Part shown: positions 1,730 through 43,996 of the stretch, in pieces
How positions within the stretch are numbered: position 1 is the first letter of the stretch
Layout of the letters: each line of letters begins with the position of its first letter
Source: Candidatus Kapaibacterium sp.
GTDB lineage: Bacteria > Bacteroidota > Ignavibacteria > Kapaibacteriales > UBA4661
Assembly: GCA_025455065.1 (NCBI GenBank)
Contig: JALONG010000037.1
Span: 1 to 47,547 of the forward strand
Direction of reading: 5' to 3'
Length of the DNA stretch: 47,547 nt
Notes under the pieces: generated by a model
Told to the model about the DNA's origin: nothing
Seen by the model: only the letters and a program-made list of their open reading frames with translations
Databases searched by the model: none
Program-made: the position numbers and the translations under genes

Positions 1730-3154
1730 TCAATAATTCGCAAGTGGGAACCCCAAACGTACCTCATCGCTCAAATAAGGGTGTTGTTGATATTTCTTAC
1801 CATTATTCCAAATAGAAAATTGTTGCTGCAAATACGTGTATGCTTCTCTGATTGTAATAATCCTATCATTATCATAATCAACATTTCGATCATTCAAAGC
1901 ATTGAGCAGATGGTGTGTAAAAATACCGTGACCAATCTCTTCACTTTCTTGTGCCATTTCATTACCAGAACACGAGAATAGAAAGCCAGGTCTATCATCA
2001 ATACTTCCTAGCTTTTGATACATTTTTGCCAATGCTTCTTTAGGAAACAAAAGTTTTTTTTCTTTCGGTTTCATATCAACCCTACAAGCATCAACAATAA
2101 ACAACTTATTTTTTGCTTGCGATTCATTGATAAGTGCAACTAAAGATTCATACGCTAGCTCTTGATCTACTGCTAAGAAATATTGAAAATCCCCATGACC
2201 AGCTAAGTAAACTATGTTTAAATCATTGGCTTTTGAATTTTTAAACAAATTTTCGGCACTTTTCAAAATATTCCTGATTGTAGCTTGTTCATTTCTCAAC
2301 AAAATAATATTGTCTTCTTTGATTTTTCCACCTTTACTGGATTTCCAAAATCTATACATTGCTAGAGCATCATCTACTGTATAACGTAAAGGTTGTACAT
2401 TTTCATTTTCATATTTTTCCACACCTACTAATAACACTCTAATTGTTGGTAGTATATCTTGGTTCTCAAGCATATTTAATGAAGAGGTTTCATCCTGCTT
2501 GGAAGAAATTACAAAATTAGTGAAATTGTGTATGCCGCCCGAGACTACAAAATGATGAAAATGTATTTCCCCAACACCTGGTGGATAAAAGAACTCAACA
2601 ATTTTTTCTCCGTTTACAAAAAGCAGCCACAATCCATATTGTTTGGATATACGTATGGAATTTGATCTATACAGTGGTACTTTTTTGTCCTTGACTTGTA
2701 CGCCAATATCATAGTTATTATTATTTGGGTTTAGAGAAAATATTTTACCTTGTAAATAACTAGAGGAAATAACGCCTTGAACTCCGAGCCTAACTTTGTT
2801 CATCGCCTTACCTCCATCTGTAATAATCTCAAATACTAATAGCAAACTATCGTTGTTATATGACTGGTCTAATTGCCAATTAAAATCAAGATCTGCTGTC
2901 TCTAAACTATCAAACACCTCAGAAATCCTGCTTGGTAAAGGTATATAAGCTCCTACGTCAGAGCTAACAAAATATTGACCTTTTTTTGTTGATACTGAAC
3001 AGATGTTTTTATCAATTTCATTAGGAGTTCTTTTCTGAAACCAACCATGTTTTTCAGTTTCAAAAGCCGAATTGTAATGAACTTTTTTTTGTTGCCCAAA
3101 AGAATGTTCTGTAAAAAGGCAAGAGATTAGTACGATATAGCAAATGGTTTTCAT
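1730..3154 (-). CDS. Secreted caspase-like (C14/metacaspase-type) peptidase
   Basis: This protein has 474 residues. Residues 1-20 form a signal peptide ending SFGQ. Residues 25-225 are beta-rich and may be a concanavalin/LamG-like module, with Trp, Gly and Asn patterns but no firm match. Residues 236-470 are a caspase p20-like domain: IRVLLVGVEKYEN is the first strand, the catalytic His is H320 in YLAGHGD, and the catalytic Cys is C357 in IVDACR. Both are intact. Family members cleave after basic or acidic residues and serve in bacterial stress, immune or secretion systems; the substrate here is unknown. The signal peptide makes a periplasmic or secreted role more likely than cytosolic abortive infection. 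It fills a single cassette between attC3 and attC2. Confidence 0.88.
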   Translation of the reverse strand: MKTICYIVLISCLFTEHSFGQQKKVHYNSAFETEKHGWFQKRTPNEIDKNICSVSTKKGQYFVSSDVGAYIPLPSRISEVFDSLETADLDFNWQLDQSYNNDSLLLVFEIITDGGKAMNKVRLGVQGVISSSYLQGKIFSLNPNNNNYDIGVQVKDKKVPLYRSNSIRISKQYGLWLLFVNGEKIVEFFYPPGVGEIHFHHFVVSGGIHNFTNFVISSKQDETSSLNMLENQDILPTIRVLLVGVEKYENENVQPLRYTVDDALAMYRFWKSSKGGKIKEDNIILLRNEQATIRNILKSAENLFKNSKANDLNIVYLAGHGDFQYFLAVDQELAYESLVALINESQAKNKLFIVDACRVDMKPKEKKLLFPKEALAKMYQKLGSIDDRPGFLFSCSGNEMAQESEEIGHGIFTHHLLNALNDRNVDYDNDRIITIREAYTYLQQQFSIWNNGKKYQQHPYLSDEVRLGFPLANY

Positions 3155-16097: not shown

Positions 16098-17297
16098 ATG
16101 AAACGGATATTGAAGAAAGTTCGCACAGAAAGCAATGAACGCATGAGGCGTTTTTCTGTGGGAGCAAACAAAACACTCCGTGCAATGAAGCGTCCCGGCT
16201 GGTGGCAAAATTATATTCTTGCCAGCCCGATTCGTATTGCGGCGTTTATTTTGGGCATTATGGCGTGTGTGGTTATCAGCATTTCGCTCTGGCAGGGCGT
16301 TTACAGCGACCGCAATTTTCAAATCAATCTCATCAGCGAAATTCACGGTGTGCTGTTCGATATTTTGATTTTGGGTATTTTGATGCTTTGGCTCAATAGG
16401 CTAGGCGAGAAGCGGCTTGAGCAGAAAAAATATCAGGAAGAAATTGATGACTTTCGCAAATTGGAAAGTGTCGAAGCAAAGCAACGCATTACCGGGAACG
16501 TCCGCCGACTCAACAAATACGGCATTTCCAAGATTGATTTGCGGATGTGTTATTTGAACGAGGCGAGTTTGTCGGAAGTGAATTTATCGGGCGCAAATCT
16601 TTGGGATGCGAACCTCGCTGGGGCGAAAATGCAAGGCGCAGACTTGTCTTCAGCGATGATGCCGGGAATTATCTTGAACGATGCAAAGATGATGTGTGCT
16701 AATTTAGGCGAGGCGAATGTTTCGGGCGCAAAACTCATCAAAGTAGATTTGTGGGAAGCGAATTTGTTCAAAGCAAACTTTGAAAGTTCGGATTTAAGCG
16801 GCGCGAATTTGAGCAGCGTTAATGCGGAGCAGTCCGATTTTTCCTCCGCGATTTTAAGCGATGCAATTTTGGATGCAGCGAATTTTTCTCACGCCAATCT
16901 TCCCGGTACAATGCTGGACAATGCAAATTTAACGGGAGCAAATTTGGAATACGCAACAATGTGGAATTGTAATTTTGCCGGAGCAATTCTTTTCGGTGCG
17001 GAACTCCACCATGCAGACTGCTCCGGCTCAGTGTTTTCGGGCGCAATGCTTGCCGAAACCAATCTCGCCTACACGAATCTTTCCAATGCCGACCTTGTTC
17101 AATCGGACTTCTCCGGTGCAAACTTTGAAGCCACCAAACTCGAAGGTGCGGATTTAACAGGCGCGAACTTGCAAGGCGCACGGCATCTGAGTTTTGAGCA
17201 ATTAGCGCAAGCGCGTTCCTTGCAAGACGCAATGCTTGATGAAGACTTGCTTTCGGAAGTCCGTGAACGCACACCGCATCTGCTGAACATAGCATAA
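16098..17297 (+). CDS. Membrane pentapeptide-repeat protein
   Basis: This protein has 399 residues. Residues 1-40 are basic; two membrane segments follow at about 44-66 ([20 protein letters not shown]) and 85-100 ([16 protein letters not shown]). A short charged linker with [15 protein letters not shown] leads into about 45 pentapeptide units, residues 150-370, in the A(D/N)LxX pattern ([20 protein letters not shown] and onward). Such repeats fold into a right-handed quadrilateral beta-helix. Two N-terminal membrane helices followed by the helix on the cytosolic side suggest a membrane-tethered scaffold. No substrate or partner can be named. Confidence 0.85.
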
Positions 17298-39507: not shown

Positions 39508-39546
39508 AAAAAAAGTTGTAGCCTCCCGCAGAGCGTAGGCTACAAC
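39508..39546 (-). terminator. Rho-independent terminator of the pseudokinase gene
   Basis: gttgtagcct (39515-39524) pairs perfectly with aggctacaac (39537-39546); on the minus strand the stem is followed directly by seven T (39514-39508). It lies 23 bp after the stop at 39570. This is a textbook intrinsic terminator. Confidence 0.85.
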
Positions 39547-39569
39547 TATATTTCTCGCTCATTATCAAC

Positions 39570-42530
39570 TTACCGCTGTGCTTTCGAGATGTTAATATTG
39601 TGTTTATCTGAGGTTGCCAAAAACTTCCCGTCGGGGCTGAATGCCGCCGGAGTGCCTTCGCATGACACGCCCGCAGATTGTTGAATTGCCTCGCCGGTGG
39701 CAGCATCCCACACACGCACGGTTTTGTCTTTGCCGCTTGAAATAAGCGTTTTCCCGTCAGGGCTGAAAAAAACTGATGTAACGGCGCTGGAATGACCGCG
39801 CAAGGAGCGTAAAATCGTGCCTGTGGCAGCATCCCAAATTTTCACCGTTTTGTCGTCACTGCCGCTTGCAATCGTCTTTCCGTCGGGGCTAAAAGAAACC
39901 GAGCGCACATTGCCGACATGACCGCGCAAAATCAAGAACGGTTCAATTTTTTTTGAAGCCCGCATTGCTTTTTCCAATGCTACGGCGCTTTCATCCACCT
40001 TATTGGGTGATTCAACGGGATTGGTGCTAGGCGCGTAGTTATCCTCGCGATTTGTGCGCGGTTTGTCTTTTGCCGGAATACTTGATTTTATTGCTTCAGG
40101 CGTGGATTTTTCCGAAATGTTCGGAGTTGCCGATGGCGTATTTGCTGCTATTGTGGAAGATTTGCCCGATGATGTTGTGCCTTTGCGCTTCAAGTGGTCA
40201 GCATATTGCTTGCGAATACGCTCCCGTGCGGCTTCGCGCTCTGCCACGCTTTGTGCATTTGCTTCCGCGAGTGAGCCGCTTTTGGCTTGGTTGCTTGGTT
40301 GGTTGGTTACTTGGTTACTTGGTTGCTTAGGGCTTGGGGGTTGGTTACTTTTAGCTTGGTTGCTTGGTTGTAGGGCTTTGGGGGTTGATTTTTCTGAAGG
40401 CGTTTTGGGCGTAGCATCCGAAGCAAGGTTTGATGACGGTTTGCTTGTAGTTTGGGGTACTTTTTTCTCTGCACGTTGTACCGTTGAAGTCTGAGGCTTC
40501 AAAGTGGCTTTGGGAGCGGCTTTGGGGCTTGGGGTGCTTTGTTCCGGTGTTGAATTGCTGCGCTGTTTTTTGCTTTCAGGCAATGCGGTATTTGTTTGCG
40601 CTGATTCATCCGATGAGGGAACACGCGGTTTTTCCTCTGCGGTTGTCAGCGAAGGTTGTGCTTTGCTTGAAGATTGCCCTTGATTTGAAGATTCTGCTTT
40701 GTTTGAAGATTGAGTTTCGCTTGCAGGTTGTGTTTTACTTGAAGATTGGGCTTCGCTTGATTCCGTCGGACTTGTCGTTGCCTGCGGTGTGGTTTGTGCT
40801 TTGGAGGCGCTTTGTTGCTCTTCTTGAGGGTTGTTTTTTTGTGCAAGTTCTTCTACGCGGCGGGCAATGGAATCGCGGCGGCGTTCCTGCTCTTCGGTGG
40901 AAAGTTCTTGTTGCGCGGAATTAGCATTTGCCCCGGCATCGCTTTTGTTGTTTTTCAAGGCGATGTAGTAAATACCGCCTCCAAGCGCCACAGCACCGAC
41001 GACTAACCAAGGTAGGACAGAGCGACGTTTCTTTTCCTCATTTTTTTCGGCGGGTTTATTGGGCAAAGGTTGTTGTGCTAACGATGCCGTGCGCGATTGA
41101 AGTTCTGCCGGACTAGGCATTGGAGCAGGGCGTGGTGATGACAAGGGCGGTGTATCCGTTCCCGCACTGCCGAATGACGCGCTTTCGTCCGATTGCGGCG
41201 CTTGTGCGGCTGCCGCAAACGCGGAGCGCTCCTGTTCTGCCTTCACAGCCTGCATACGGCGCTCTACTTCAAGCTGCATGGGTGTTTTGGTTAGTGTCGG
41301 CGTGGAGAACACCTGAGGTGCGCTTGGTGGCGGCGGAGCGGGTTCGGCGGATTTGCTGAAGAGCGCTCCAAAGCCTGATTTTTCCTGTGGCTTCTCTTGT
41401 GGTTTTTCCGTAGCGCTTTCTGAAGAATCGGAGCTGGTTTCGGATACGTTGGTTGCAAGGGTGCTTTCTTGCTTGGTTTCCGATGCAAGTGGCGGCGTTT
41501 GCGAAGGGGGAAATTGCAAGGCAGCAGGTGTTTGAGACTCGGCAGTAGGCGCTTTTGGCGGAACAAAGGCGCTTGCGAATGCTGCCATTGCTCCAACACC
41601 AATTCCTGCACCCGCAGTTGTACCCGCAGCACGAGAAAGCGAGGAATCGTCAACTTTCGGCGGTGTTTTTGCGGCTTTTTCCGCGTCGAGTTGGCGCTGC
41701 ACTTCGGGGTGAATTTTTTGCAGCAAGCGAGAAAATTCGCGGCTGGAAGGGCGCTCACGGCGGTCTTTTGCTAATGCCTTACGCACAAGGTTTGAAAGGT
41801 GTGGCGGAATGTTCAACTCCGGCATTGCTTCGGTAATGTCGGGGGCTTGTTGCTGCAAAATTGCTTGCCGCAAACGCGCTTCGGAATCACGTTCATTAAC
41901 GGCAAAGGGCATTTTTCCTGTAATCATGCGGTAAAGAATCACACCCAAACTATACACATCGCTGCGCTCGTCAATGCTTTCGCCGCGCAAAATCTCCGGC
42001 GGTAAATACGCCATTTTGCCCGTGCGCCCCGCAGAGCGCACTAATGCTGCATTGCTGAGAATCGGTGCAATGCCAAATCCGCTTACTTTTACGAGATTGT
42101 CACCCGAAATCACAATATCGCTCGGCTTCAATCCACCATGCAGAACACCTTTGGAATGTGCCGTTGTTACGCCGCGCATAGCTTGTTGAAGAATCTGCAC
42201 CGCGCCTTCATGCGGCATTGGGCGAGATTTTTTGCTGAGAACGGTTTCCAAACTGCGTCCGGGAGCATATTCCATAATGACATGAACGGTATCGCCGCTT
42301 TCGACAATATCCAGCACCCGCACGATGTTTTCTTGCTGCGGCAAGGATTGAAGCGCTTTTTTGACATCTTTCACACGCTTGCGCACGGCAGGTTCGCGCA
42401 CGAGGTCAGGCGAGAGCGATTTCACGGCAACATCAGTTTTGGTATCGGCTTCGCGCCCTTTGCGGACAATCCCTGTGCTTCCTGTGCCGATGCGGTCGGA
42501 AACGGTATAATTCTGTATTTTCTCAGGCAT
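39570..42530 (-). CDS. Transmembrane pseudokinase with WD40 repeats
   Basis: This protein has 986 residues. The kinase-like domain (about 5-275) keeps the glycine loop GTGSTG (residues 15-20), the VAVK lysine K37 and the DVYSLGVIL segment. However, the catalytic HRD is HGG (131-133), the following LKPxN is LKPSD, and the metal-binding DFG is GFG (151-153). Without both Asp residues it is unlikely to phosphorylate. Residues 290-510 and 530-860 are low-complexity Ser, Gln, Pro and Lys; between them VLPWLVVGAVALGGGIYYIA is a single membrane helix. Three WD40 units with FSPDGK(T/F) blocks close the protein (about 880-980), presumably outside the cytosol. A signalling scaffold is inferred. Confidence 0.9.
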   Translation of the reverse strand: MPEKIQNYTVSDRIGTGSTGIVRKGREADTKTDVAVKSLSPDLVREPAVRKRVKDVKKALQSLPQQENIVRVLDIVESGDTVHVIMEYAPGRSLETVLSKKSRPMPHEGAVQILQQAMRGVTTAHSKGVLHGGLKPSDIVISGDNLVKVSGFGIAPILSNAALVRSAGRTGKMAYLPPEILRGESIDERSDVYSLGVILYRMITGKMPFAVNERDSEARLRQAILQQQAPDITEAMPELNIPPHLSNLVRKALAKDRRERPSSREFSRLLQKIHPEVQRQLDAEKAAKTPPKVDDSSLSRAAGTTAGAGIGVGAMAAFASAFVPPKAPTAESQTPAALQFPPSQTPPLASETKQESTLATNVSETSSDSSESATEKPQEKPQEKSGFGALFSKSAEPAPPPPSAPQVFSTPTLTKTPMQLEVERRMQAVKAEQERSAFAAAAQAPQSDESASFGSAGTDTPPLSSPRPAPMPSPAELQSRTASLAQQPLPNKPAEKNEEKKRRSVLPWLVVGAVALGGGIYYIALKNNKSDAGANANSAQQELSTEEQERRRDSIARRVEELAQKNNPQEEQQSASKAQTTPQATTSPTESSEAQSSSKTQPASETQSSNKAESSNQGQSSSKAQPSLTTAEEKPRVPSSDESAQTNTALPESKKQRSNSTPEQSTPSPKAAPKATLKPQTSTVQRAEKKVPQTTSKPSSNLASDATPKTPSEKSTPKALQPSNQAKSNQPPSPKQPSNQVTNQPSNQAKSGSLAEANAQSVAEREAARERIRKQYADHLKRKGTTSSGKSSTIAANTPSATPNISEKSTPEAIKSSIPAKDKPRTNREDNYAPSTNPVESPNKVDESAVALEKAMRASKKIEPFLILRGHVGNVRSVSFSPDGKTIASGSDDKTVKIWDAATGTILRSLRGHSSAVTSVFFSPDGKTLISSGKDKTVRVWDAATGEAIQQSAGVSCEGTPAAFSPDGKFLATSDKHNINISKAQR
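40284..40371. repeat. In-gene tandem repeat coding NQ/PS-rich linker
   Basis: Tandem ggttacttggtt/ggttgcttgg words inside the pseudokinase gene encode the NQPSNQAKS-type linker. They are the same words as the intergenic repeat at 31341-31398. Confidence 0.7.
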
Positions 42531-42674: not shown

Positions 42675-43673
42675 TTAAGCGTGTTTGATACGGTTGGTCA
42701 GCGTACCGATGCCGTCAATGCTACATTCGACAACATCACCGACATTTAGCCACAAAGGCGGGTCGAAAACTTTGCTGCCGTTGAGTTCGAGCAAACATCC
42801 TGTTCCGCAGGTGCCGCTTCCAATCACTTCGCCCGGGTGCAATTCCACGCCATAGCTGACGCGCTCTATGATTTGCGCAAATGTCCAGTGCATATCTTTA
42901 ACGTTGCCCCGTGAAACAATTTTGCCGTTGATGGAAGCAGTCATGGGTAAATCATAGTGATTGCCTTTGTGTGTAGGAATAATGCGGTCTTTGAGCGCTT
43001 CTTTGCTGACAAGACAAGGACCTAAGGACGTAGCAAAATCTTTGCCTTTTGCCGGACCGAGGCTCATTTGCATTTCCTGCATTTGCAGCGCACGAGCGCT
43101 CCAATCGTTCATCACCATAAAGCCGTAGATGTGTTCATCGGCACGTTCTGCGGGAATGTTTTTGCCGCCTTTGCCGATGACGATGGCACATTCCAACTCG
43201 AAATCAAGATTTTGCAGGTGTAAATCTTCTACCGCCACATCGCCACCGCCAGTAACGCTGAGGTGATTGGTGAAATAAAAAATCGGAATTTCGTCGAAGG
43301 TCTCAATCATTGGCAAACCGCGATTGCGCCTTGCTGTTTCGACGTGCTGCCGAAACGCATAGCCGTCGCGCATGGAAACAGGACGCGGAAGAGGCGAAAG
43401 AATCTCTGCCGAAGCGACTTCCAGCGCCACACCCGGAGGAGTTTCCGCATGGTGATTCGACGCAAACCACGCTTCGAGTTTGTGCGCTTCGTGGTGTGCG
43501 GTTTCTCCGGCTTGCAAATACTCAAGCATGGATGACGGCAAAGCCTCCAAACGCCCATGAATACTTGCTTTTGCAAAGCTATATCCTTGTTCAAGGTCGA
43601 GAATTCGTTCTTGAATGTGTAGCCCTAAACGCGGTTTGATGCTTTGGTCGGTTGTGTACGTTACCAAGCGCAT
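42675..43673 (-). CDS. Fumarylacetoacetate hydrolase family protein
   Basis: This protein has 332 residues. The ATG at 43673 begins MRLVTYTTDQ; upstream extension reads into the palindrome and is rejected. The FAH fold has YFTNHLSVTGGGD, DFELECAIVIGKGGKNI (first metal Glu pair), MNDWSARALQ and KGKDFATSLGPCLVS, followed by SGTCGTGCLLEL. All metal residues appear present. Enzymes of this type hydrolyse or decarboxylate beta-diketone acids in aromatic amino-acid breakdown. Whether it is fumarylacetoacetase proper or a relative cannot be fixed by eye; no other tyrosine-degradation gene is next to it. Confidence 0.88.
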   Translation of the reverse strand: MRLVTYTTDQSIKPRLGLHIQERILDLEQGYSFAKASIHGRLEALPSSMLEYLQAGETAHHEAHKLEAWFASNHHAETPPGVALEVASAEILSPLPRPVSMRDGYAFRQHVETARRNRGLPMIETFDEIPIFYFTNHLSVTGGGDVAVEDLHLQNLDFELECAIVIGKGGKNIPAERADEHIYGFMVMNDWSARALQMQEMQMSLGPAKGKDFATSLGPCLVSKEALKDRIIPTHKGNHYDLPMTASINGKIVSRGNVKDMHWTFAQIIERVSYGVELHPGEVIGSGTCGTGCLLELNGSKVFDPPLWLNVGDVVECSIDGIGTLTNRIKHA

Positions 43674-43790
43674 ATCTAAGCCCTCACAGAATCTGGAACA
43701 TAAAAAAATGGAACTGCGCAAAGATACGCAAAACGTTTTGCACGGCGCAATATCGTTTTTACATTCGGTCAGGTTTCGCAGAATTTTTAT

Positions 43791-43894
43791 CTGCGAATCG
43801 CACGAATCTTCACAAATCAAGAATTTACGAGATGTTCCTTGTTTGCACACTACCGTGAACATCAAGGATTCGTGGCGATTCGTGCAATTCGCGG
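43791..43894. repeat. Intergenic palindrome C (long arms)
   Basis: The arm 43791-43821 (ctgcgaatcgcacgaatctt...) pairs imperfectly with 43864-43894, and an inner gatgttc (43831-43837) pairs exactly with gaacatc (43857-43863). It uses the same cacgaat/gattcgtg words as the palindrome at 11364. The whole 43674-43996 gap between the divergent FAH and histidine-kinase genes holds no coding sequence. Confidence 0.62.
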
Positions 43895-43996
43895 ACATTT
43901 TTCTGAGACGTAAATATTTTTGTATGGTTTTATCATAGCAAAGACTAAATTACTGTACCAATTCGTATTTTTTTTGTGTTCATCGGAGAGTGTGTA

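Follow-up and report, generated by a model that had tools for sequence, protein, structure and literature searches.

The minus strand of contig JALONG010000037.1 from a Candidatus Kapaibacterium sp. assembly (GCA_025455065.1), of which a stretch of 47,547 nucleotides was analysed as a whole (the window), carries at positions 39570-42530 an open reading frame of 986 amino acids that encodes a membrane pseudokinase. As judged from sequence comparison and structure prediction, the catalytic and metal-binding residues of its kinase domain are gone from a whole clade of orthologues, while a conserved kinase fold is predicted. From the N- to the C-terminus the protein consists of a PknB-like kinase domain, a low-complexity linker, a predicted membrane helix, a second low-complexity linker and WD40 blades. 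We give roughly an even chance to the view that this Hanks-type protein has lost catalysis and serves, anchored in the membrane, as a scaffold or receptor driven by oligomerization.

Loss of catalytic residues from a conserved kinase domain

The N-terminal domain matches the Pfam family Pkinase (PF00069) with 157.1 bits against a curated cut-off of 31.7 (best stretch residues 8-265), and among solved structures PknB and StkP are nearest to it in sequence, with E values for PknB of 3.6e-34 (sequence) and 6.1e-48 (profile). Alignment with PknB, together with direct reading, puts H131-G-G at the place of the HRD motif, Asp138 at that of the Mg-binding Asn, G151-F-G at that of the DFG motif and Val56 at that of the alphaC Glu, whereas Lys37 (in VAVK) and the loop glycines Gly15, Gly17 and Gly20 are retained. 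An earlier, sequence-only reading of this DNA had described a pseudokinase with HGG and GFG motifs and an intact ATP lysine and glycine loop, which is confirmed here at the level of sequence; its list of motifs was right as far as it went and missed the loss of the alphaC Glu. A chance motif call is excluded, as the motif places align with PknB and 52 of the 53 non-family rows in a like alignment show HRD. The AlphaFold2 (AF2) model of residues 1-277, made from the nine-sequence alignment, has a mean predicted local distance difference test score (pLDDT) of 81.2, which is lower at residues 151-170, and matches PknA and Staphylococcus aureus Stk1/PknB with template modelling (TM) scores of 0.77-0.78. 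The parts of the protein are located as follows.

39570..42530 (-): coding sequence of the membrane pseudokinase, 986 amino acids (open reading frame, Pfam, orthologues)
41700..42530 (-): PknB-like pseudokinase domain, residues 1-277 (Pfam; PknB as best solved relative; AF2 kinase fold)
42471..42488 (-): glycine loop, residues 15-20, with Gly15, Gly17 and Gly20 (invariant, 9/9)
42420..42422 (-): beta3 Lys37 in VAVK, kept (invariant, 9/9)
42117..42140 (-): degenerate catalytic loop HGGLKPSD, residues 131-138; canonical HRDxKxxN (HG[GNS]LKPSD, 9/9)
42072..42080 (-): degenerate metal-binding motif GFG, residues 151-153; canonical DFG (GFG, 9/9)
41019..41699 (-): low-complexity variable linker, residues 278-504, probably cytoplasmic, with a conserved ERRMQ motif (orthologue alignment)
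40956..41018 (-): predicted membrane helix, residues ~505-525, preceded by KKRR (hydropathy, conservation)
39993..40955 (-): long low-complexity variable linker, residues 526-846, probably extracytoplasmic (orthologue alignment)
39573..39992 (-): three-blade WD40 tail, residues 847-986 (alignment, AF2, blade profile)
Parts of the WD40 tail: an edge strand, full blades at residues 869-910 and 911-952, and a last blade at 953-986 that stops after its third strand

An orthologue was found in all eight genomes of the genus that were examined, including the genome from which the window derives, and in one genome (G008) of a second genus of the same family. The catalytic loop reads HG[GNS]LKPSD and the metal-binding motif GFG in each of these nine proteins, with Lys37, Lys135, Asp138 and the three loop glycines invariant. 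Thus, the HRD Asp, catalytic-loop Asn and DFG Asp that characterize active Hanks-type Ser/Thr kinases are absent throughout. Bacterial Ser/Thr pseudokinases have been defined by loss of the beta3 Lys, the HRD Asp and/or the DFG Asp (PMC12599244), and the present family, with both aspartates lost in 9/9 sequences, falls by its sequence under this definition. The sequence-only reading had proposed that orthologues with HRD and DFG would point to recent decay or to a sequencing error in this genome; both are ruled out by the motifs that nine orthologues share and by the low ratios of nonsynonymous to synonymous substitution rates (dN/dS). The alphaC Glu is changed in eight of the nine orthologues and kept in G008 only, which suggests that the catalytic residues were lost first. 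The orthologues from G001 and G003 (L166, L167) carry Lys/Glu-rich insertions between the glycine loop and beta3 and a shorter insertion after the catalytic loop.

In a midpoint-rooted tree of 49 rows the nine orthologues form one clade (support 100/100), which groups with four rows from the class that have HRD and DFG, with a support of 94/91 that lies below the threshold of this tree (95/80). Since they form one clade and group with HRD/DFG kinases, a single loss of catalysis suffices to explain their distribution. Outside the genus, among the matches listed from 197 genomes of the class (in which G008 was not sampled), there are only kinases with at most 35% identity. The comparison alignment held 58 rows from 107 loci (L058-L164; E 1e-10), five being family members; of the 53 other rows, HRD is present in 52 and DFG in 49, the other DFG places reading PVS, DWG and GFG, and the row without HRD is the empty second piece of L067. 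The row with GFG, from a cyanobacterial kinase (L064, 4165-6264), has HRD, and is either a real variant or an alignment slip.

The kinase domain and the WD40 tail are both under purifying selection, according to the codon and protein comparisons. The dN/dS ratios, which are rough since dS exceeds 1 in several pairs, are 0.000-0.114 for the kinase domain (seven pairs), 0.014-0.081 for the tail (six pairs) and 0.177-0.542 for the linkers where defined, and G002 and G007 share one and the same kinase-domain protein sequence although dS between them is 0.316. Mean pairwise identity is highest in the tail (0.72), followed by the helix (0.71), the kinase domain (0.66) and the linkers (0.34 and 0.32). 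The slightly higher conservation of the tail could be taken to mean that this is a WD40 protein with a kinase domain that survives as a structural relic and has no signalling role. We consider this very improbable, in view of the unchanged protein in G002 and G007, the dN/dS of at most 0.114 in all seven pairs and the loop HG-x-LKPSD in 9/9 orthologues.

Two further explanations would leave the kinase domain with an enzymatic function. Canonical phosphotransfer by an active kinase with unusual catalytic residues would agree with the kept glycine loop and Lys37, but it is hardly credible when the catalytic Asp, the Mg-binding Asn and the DFG Asp are changed in 9/9 and the alphaC Glu in 8/9 orthologues, and when no PP2C or FHA match occurs in the family. 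A non-canonical activity of the fold, e.g. AMPylation or glutamylation, might instead use Lys37, the glycine loop and Asp138; Lys37, Lys135 and Asp138 are invariant in 9/9, and the pseudokinases SidJ and SelO do have other activities (PMC12599244). We regard this as rather unlikely, as SidJ and Escherichia coli SelO keep the Asp at the DFG place (DLG and DYG; Table 1 of PMC12599244), where all nine proteins of the present family have Gly.

PF00069 matches four proteins of the own genome; besides the pseudokinase these are three frames with lengths between 1068 and 1843 amino acids, which appear by eye to be kinase-ATPase fusions. The earlier reading had suggested a search for a catalytically active paralogue, and this gave a mixed outcome: one large fusion (C131) keeps the Lys (by eye), the Asp of HKD, the Asn and the Asp of DYE, and from these residues may be an active kinase, whereas C118 has HCS and no DFG and C54 lacks an alignable catalytic loop (G000:C118 and G000:C54, i.e. 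L003 and L004). By sequence, degenerate kinase domains in the own genome thus outnumber the single intact-looking one. The family search gave 20 non-family rows from 18 frames, 15 of which are 839 to 1843 amino acids long (eight of these were read by eye) and three are short (52, 148 and 182 amino acids). HKD and DFG occur in L188 and L196. The short frames are L200 (182 amino acids, HRDLKPEN, one stop inside the match) and L202 (148 amino acids) in G002, and L194 (52 amino acids) in G001; they possibly represent a broken or split stand-alone kinase. With this caveat, the pseudokinase appears to be the only intact stand-alone Hanks-type protein seen in the genomes of the family.

FHA, PP2C_2 and PP2C gave no match at E 0.001 in ten genomes of the family, two of which are less than 90% complete, whereas six or seven of 14 control genomes were matched. 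This fits weak or absent ordinary Ser/Thr phospho-signalling in the family. In G160, a genome of the same order, an HRD/DFG kinase and a PP2C-like frame were seen by eye in one locus.

Membrane topology and the three-blade WD40 tail

The membrane helix reported by the sequence-only reading was recovered by hydropathy analysis near residues 505-525, and is common to all orthologues. The KKRR that precedes it and the folded N-terminal domain without evident signal peptide favour a position of the kinase domain inside and of the tail outside the cell, and the WD40 tail is therefore likely to be extracytoplasmic, as the earlier reading had stated more firmly. The long linkers of that reading are also present; they are described here as low-complexity and variable, as seen in the alignment, where that reading had called them disordered.

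A second, Ala-rich stretch near residue 305 scores similarly to the helix. If both stretches spanned the membrane, the tail would be cytoplasmic and the protein an ordinary intracellular scaffold. Kyte-Doolittle values of 1.57 to 1.96 in G000, G004 and G006 are like those of the helix and speak for this topology, which we nevertheless consider quite improbable: the Ala-rich stretch sits in a poorly conserved, length-variable region, and G008, which lacks it, and G005, where it is weaker (1.21), both have the helix.

The C-terminal region scores 100.4 bits with the WD40 family of Pfam against a cut-off of 27. What the earlier reading of this region did not notice is that only three blades exist. 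Measured from a common alignment column, seven of the eight whole orthologues have a tail of 140 amino acids and one has a tail of 143, and every one of these tails shows three blades with a blade profile that was itself derived from them; the G006 orthologue is split across contigs, with a piece of 98 amino acids (91% identity) on another contig. Since WD40 propellers have four to twelve blades (PMC6805158), a single chain with three falls short of the at least four expected for a closed ring. The other WD40 frames counted in these genomes (n=18) have 14 blades in nine cases, 8 and 7 in three cases each, and 11, 6 and 4 in one case each; these frames represent some 13 genes, were picked by similarity and are all cut by locus ends, which makes the blade counts lower bounds.

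The AF2 model of the tail (mean pLDDT 89.9) has twelve strands, which can be interpreted as one edge strand, a pair of full blades and a last blade of three strands, so that both ends would be open edges. Its top structural match is the WD40 domain of PkwA (Z 20.4, 1.5 Å, 120 residues). A disrupted longer propeller was considered and rejected: the frame is followed by a hairpin and then by dnaB, no further WD40 blade was seen by eye, and the end is shared by two genera. We infer that the tail, a conserved three-blade fragment, has too few blades to form a normal ring by itself. A WD40 survey that retained only proteins with at least six repeats (PMC5587647) would have missed such tails.

A possible signalling mode by self-assembly

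The conserved three-blade tail changes the likely mechanism. Outside the cytoplasmic membrane, a tail unable to close an ordinary ring alone could expose its first and last strands for pairing with another copy, which would yield a six-blade ring in a dimer or a nine-blade ring in a trimer. Such an assembly, which a ligand on the ring might tune, would gather pseudokinase domains inside the cell, where they might act by conformation on a partner, their retained pocket perhaps occupied by a nucleotide; phosphotransfer would not be expected from them. Self-joining of copies, rather than phosphorylation, may thus be the signalling mode. There is precedent in WD40 constructs with three blades, of which those from PkwA gave dimers and those from WRAP assembled into a nine-blade trimer (PMC6805158). 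A more specific version seems possible to us but somewhat doubtful, namely that the obligate three-blade fragment closes a ring only between chains, that this closure outside is the signal and is read inside by a pseudokinase pair, and that the lineage has dropped much of its Ser/Thr phospho-signalling.

Several observations weigh against this picture. The oligomerization proposal rests on the blade count and on published precedent, and AF2 folds a single copy of the tail with high confidence. In the alignment with PkwA the much shorter tail spans residues 451-738 of a seven-blade ring, which suggests that the model may pair the edge strands inside a single chain. Short, highly repetitive sets of blades, often near the C-terminus, have been interpreted as fragments of disrupted propellers (PMC9218822); this is countered here by the same tail end in two genera and by the low dN/dS. 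The Ala-rich stretch exceeds the helix in Kyte-Doolittle score in G004 and G006 and about equals it in G000 and G003, and as a second membrane pass it would place the tail in the cytoplasm. The residues kept in C131 make Ser/Thr phosphorylation possible in the own genome, and some pseudokinases, such as SidJ and SelO, catalyze reactions unexpectedly (PMC12599244). Finally, the gene was not found in G009, a family member whose genome is 70% complete.

The tail could also complete a propeller with the blades of another protein, three plus four, in which case the pseudokinase would be an adaptor for that partner rather than a self-assembling receptor. Three plus four gives the usual seven, 15 of the 18 other WD40 frames (~13 genes) show 7, 8 or 14 blades, and a four-blade frame of 293 amino acids exists in G005 (L023). 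However, that frame is cut by a contig end, so its true size may differ, and mixed PkwA fragments assembled into homo-oligomers only (PMC6805158). The comparison of gene neighbourhoods around the orthologues showed no WD40 gene, a weak argument, since it used 16 window proteins and would miss other WD40 genes. We consider the adaptor function unlikely.

The interest of the family is twofold. With both catalytic aspartates gone, the ATP-site Lys and glycine loop kept, and PP2C and FHA undetected in its genomes, it offers a clean case in which to study the role of a kinase fold without phosphorylation, and a natural, conserved three-blade WD40 tail would provide a test of the biological use of multi-chain propellers.

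Neighbouring genes and comparison with known systems

Two features flank the gene.

39508..39547 (-): terminator-like hairpin, 11-bp stem and U run, 22 nt past the stop codon (RNA folding)
42675..43898 (-): FAA-hydrolase family gene, upstream neighbour on the same strand, membership in the system not claimed (Pfam; synteny)

The sequence-only reading took the gene for a discrete unit with its own terminator. This is supported at the 3' end, where the stem is followed by six further U and the hairpin has a z-score of -2.31, with 3 of 200 shuffled sequences folding as well; a consensus terminator scanner, which considers loops of 3-8 only, did not list it. It is not supported on the 5' side: in seven of nine genomes, across two genera, the FAA-hydrolase family gene is the immediate upstream neighbour in the same orientation (synteny over 16 window proteins); it is missing from the stretches examined for G001 and G003. 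An operon logic based on this neighbour was rejected, since a functional link is not evident from the 7/9 pairing. The promoter scan gave no match and is uninformative. Elsewhere in the window, a caspase-like protein is encoded at 1730-3154 (-; Peptidase_C14, 54.9 bits, VDACR motif), the next frame on that strand (997-1725) has 242 amino acids and no Pfam match, and a pentapeptide-repeat protein at 16098-17297 (+; 165.3 bits) has hydrophobic stretches near its N-terminus by eye.

Regarding known systems, the PASTA kinases PknB and StkP are the closest solved kinase relatives, and PknB has the same arrangement of a kinase domain, a single helix and repeats at the C-terminus. The present protein differs in its lost catalytic residues, its WD40 blades instead of PASTA repeats and its long low-complexity linkers, and with the PASTA kinase family NF033483 of NCBIfam it reaches 192.6 bits, where more than 450 is required, over residues 8-286 only. 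PknD of Mycobacterium tuberculosis has a similar overall layout, with a membrane helix between a kinase domain and an outside six-blade propeller, but its kinase is active and its propeller is of the NHL type.

Among bacterial pseudokinases, EssB/YukC and MviN are likewise linked to the membrane, and YukC acts on dimerization while the pseudokinase domains of MviN form a dimer in the crystal (PMC12599244); their ATP motif is degraded, whereas Lys37 and the glycine loop are kept here and WD40 blades are added. The same 2025 review describes the families ActPs1-3, GLW, CP1, DYD and DLHK, and its main text does not use the terms WD40 or propeller. In ActPs1, ActPs2, ActPs3, GLW and DYD the beta3 Lys is replaced or its motif degraded, while Lys37 is kept here in 9/9. 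DLHK proteins keep the HRD Asp, have degraded ATP and DFG motifs and lack a membrane region; here the HRD Asp is lost, Lys37 is kept and a helix is predicted. CP1 proteins, about 40% of which are pseudokinases, are kinases fused to a COG3899 ATPase without a membrane region (PMC12599244), which by eye resembles the other kinase-like proteins of the own genome; the present protein has a predicted helix and lacks the ATPase part, no ATPase family being present among the best 25 of 36 Pfam matches (COG3899 itself was not searched). In the parts of the review that were consulted, no family fits a membrane protein with WD40 blades that keeps Lys37 and has lost both catalytic Asp.

Kinase and WD40 repeats in one protein are known chiefly from Cyanobacteria and Planctomycetes (PMC5587647), and a search of titles and abstract starts, which left many subscription journals outside, gave no description of the present protein. 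The best comparison for the tail is PkwA of Thermomonospora curvata, which also combines kinase and WD40 domains in one chain; it has a full seven-blade propeller (PMC6113231), where the present protein has three blades and a degenerate kinase.

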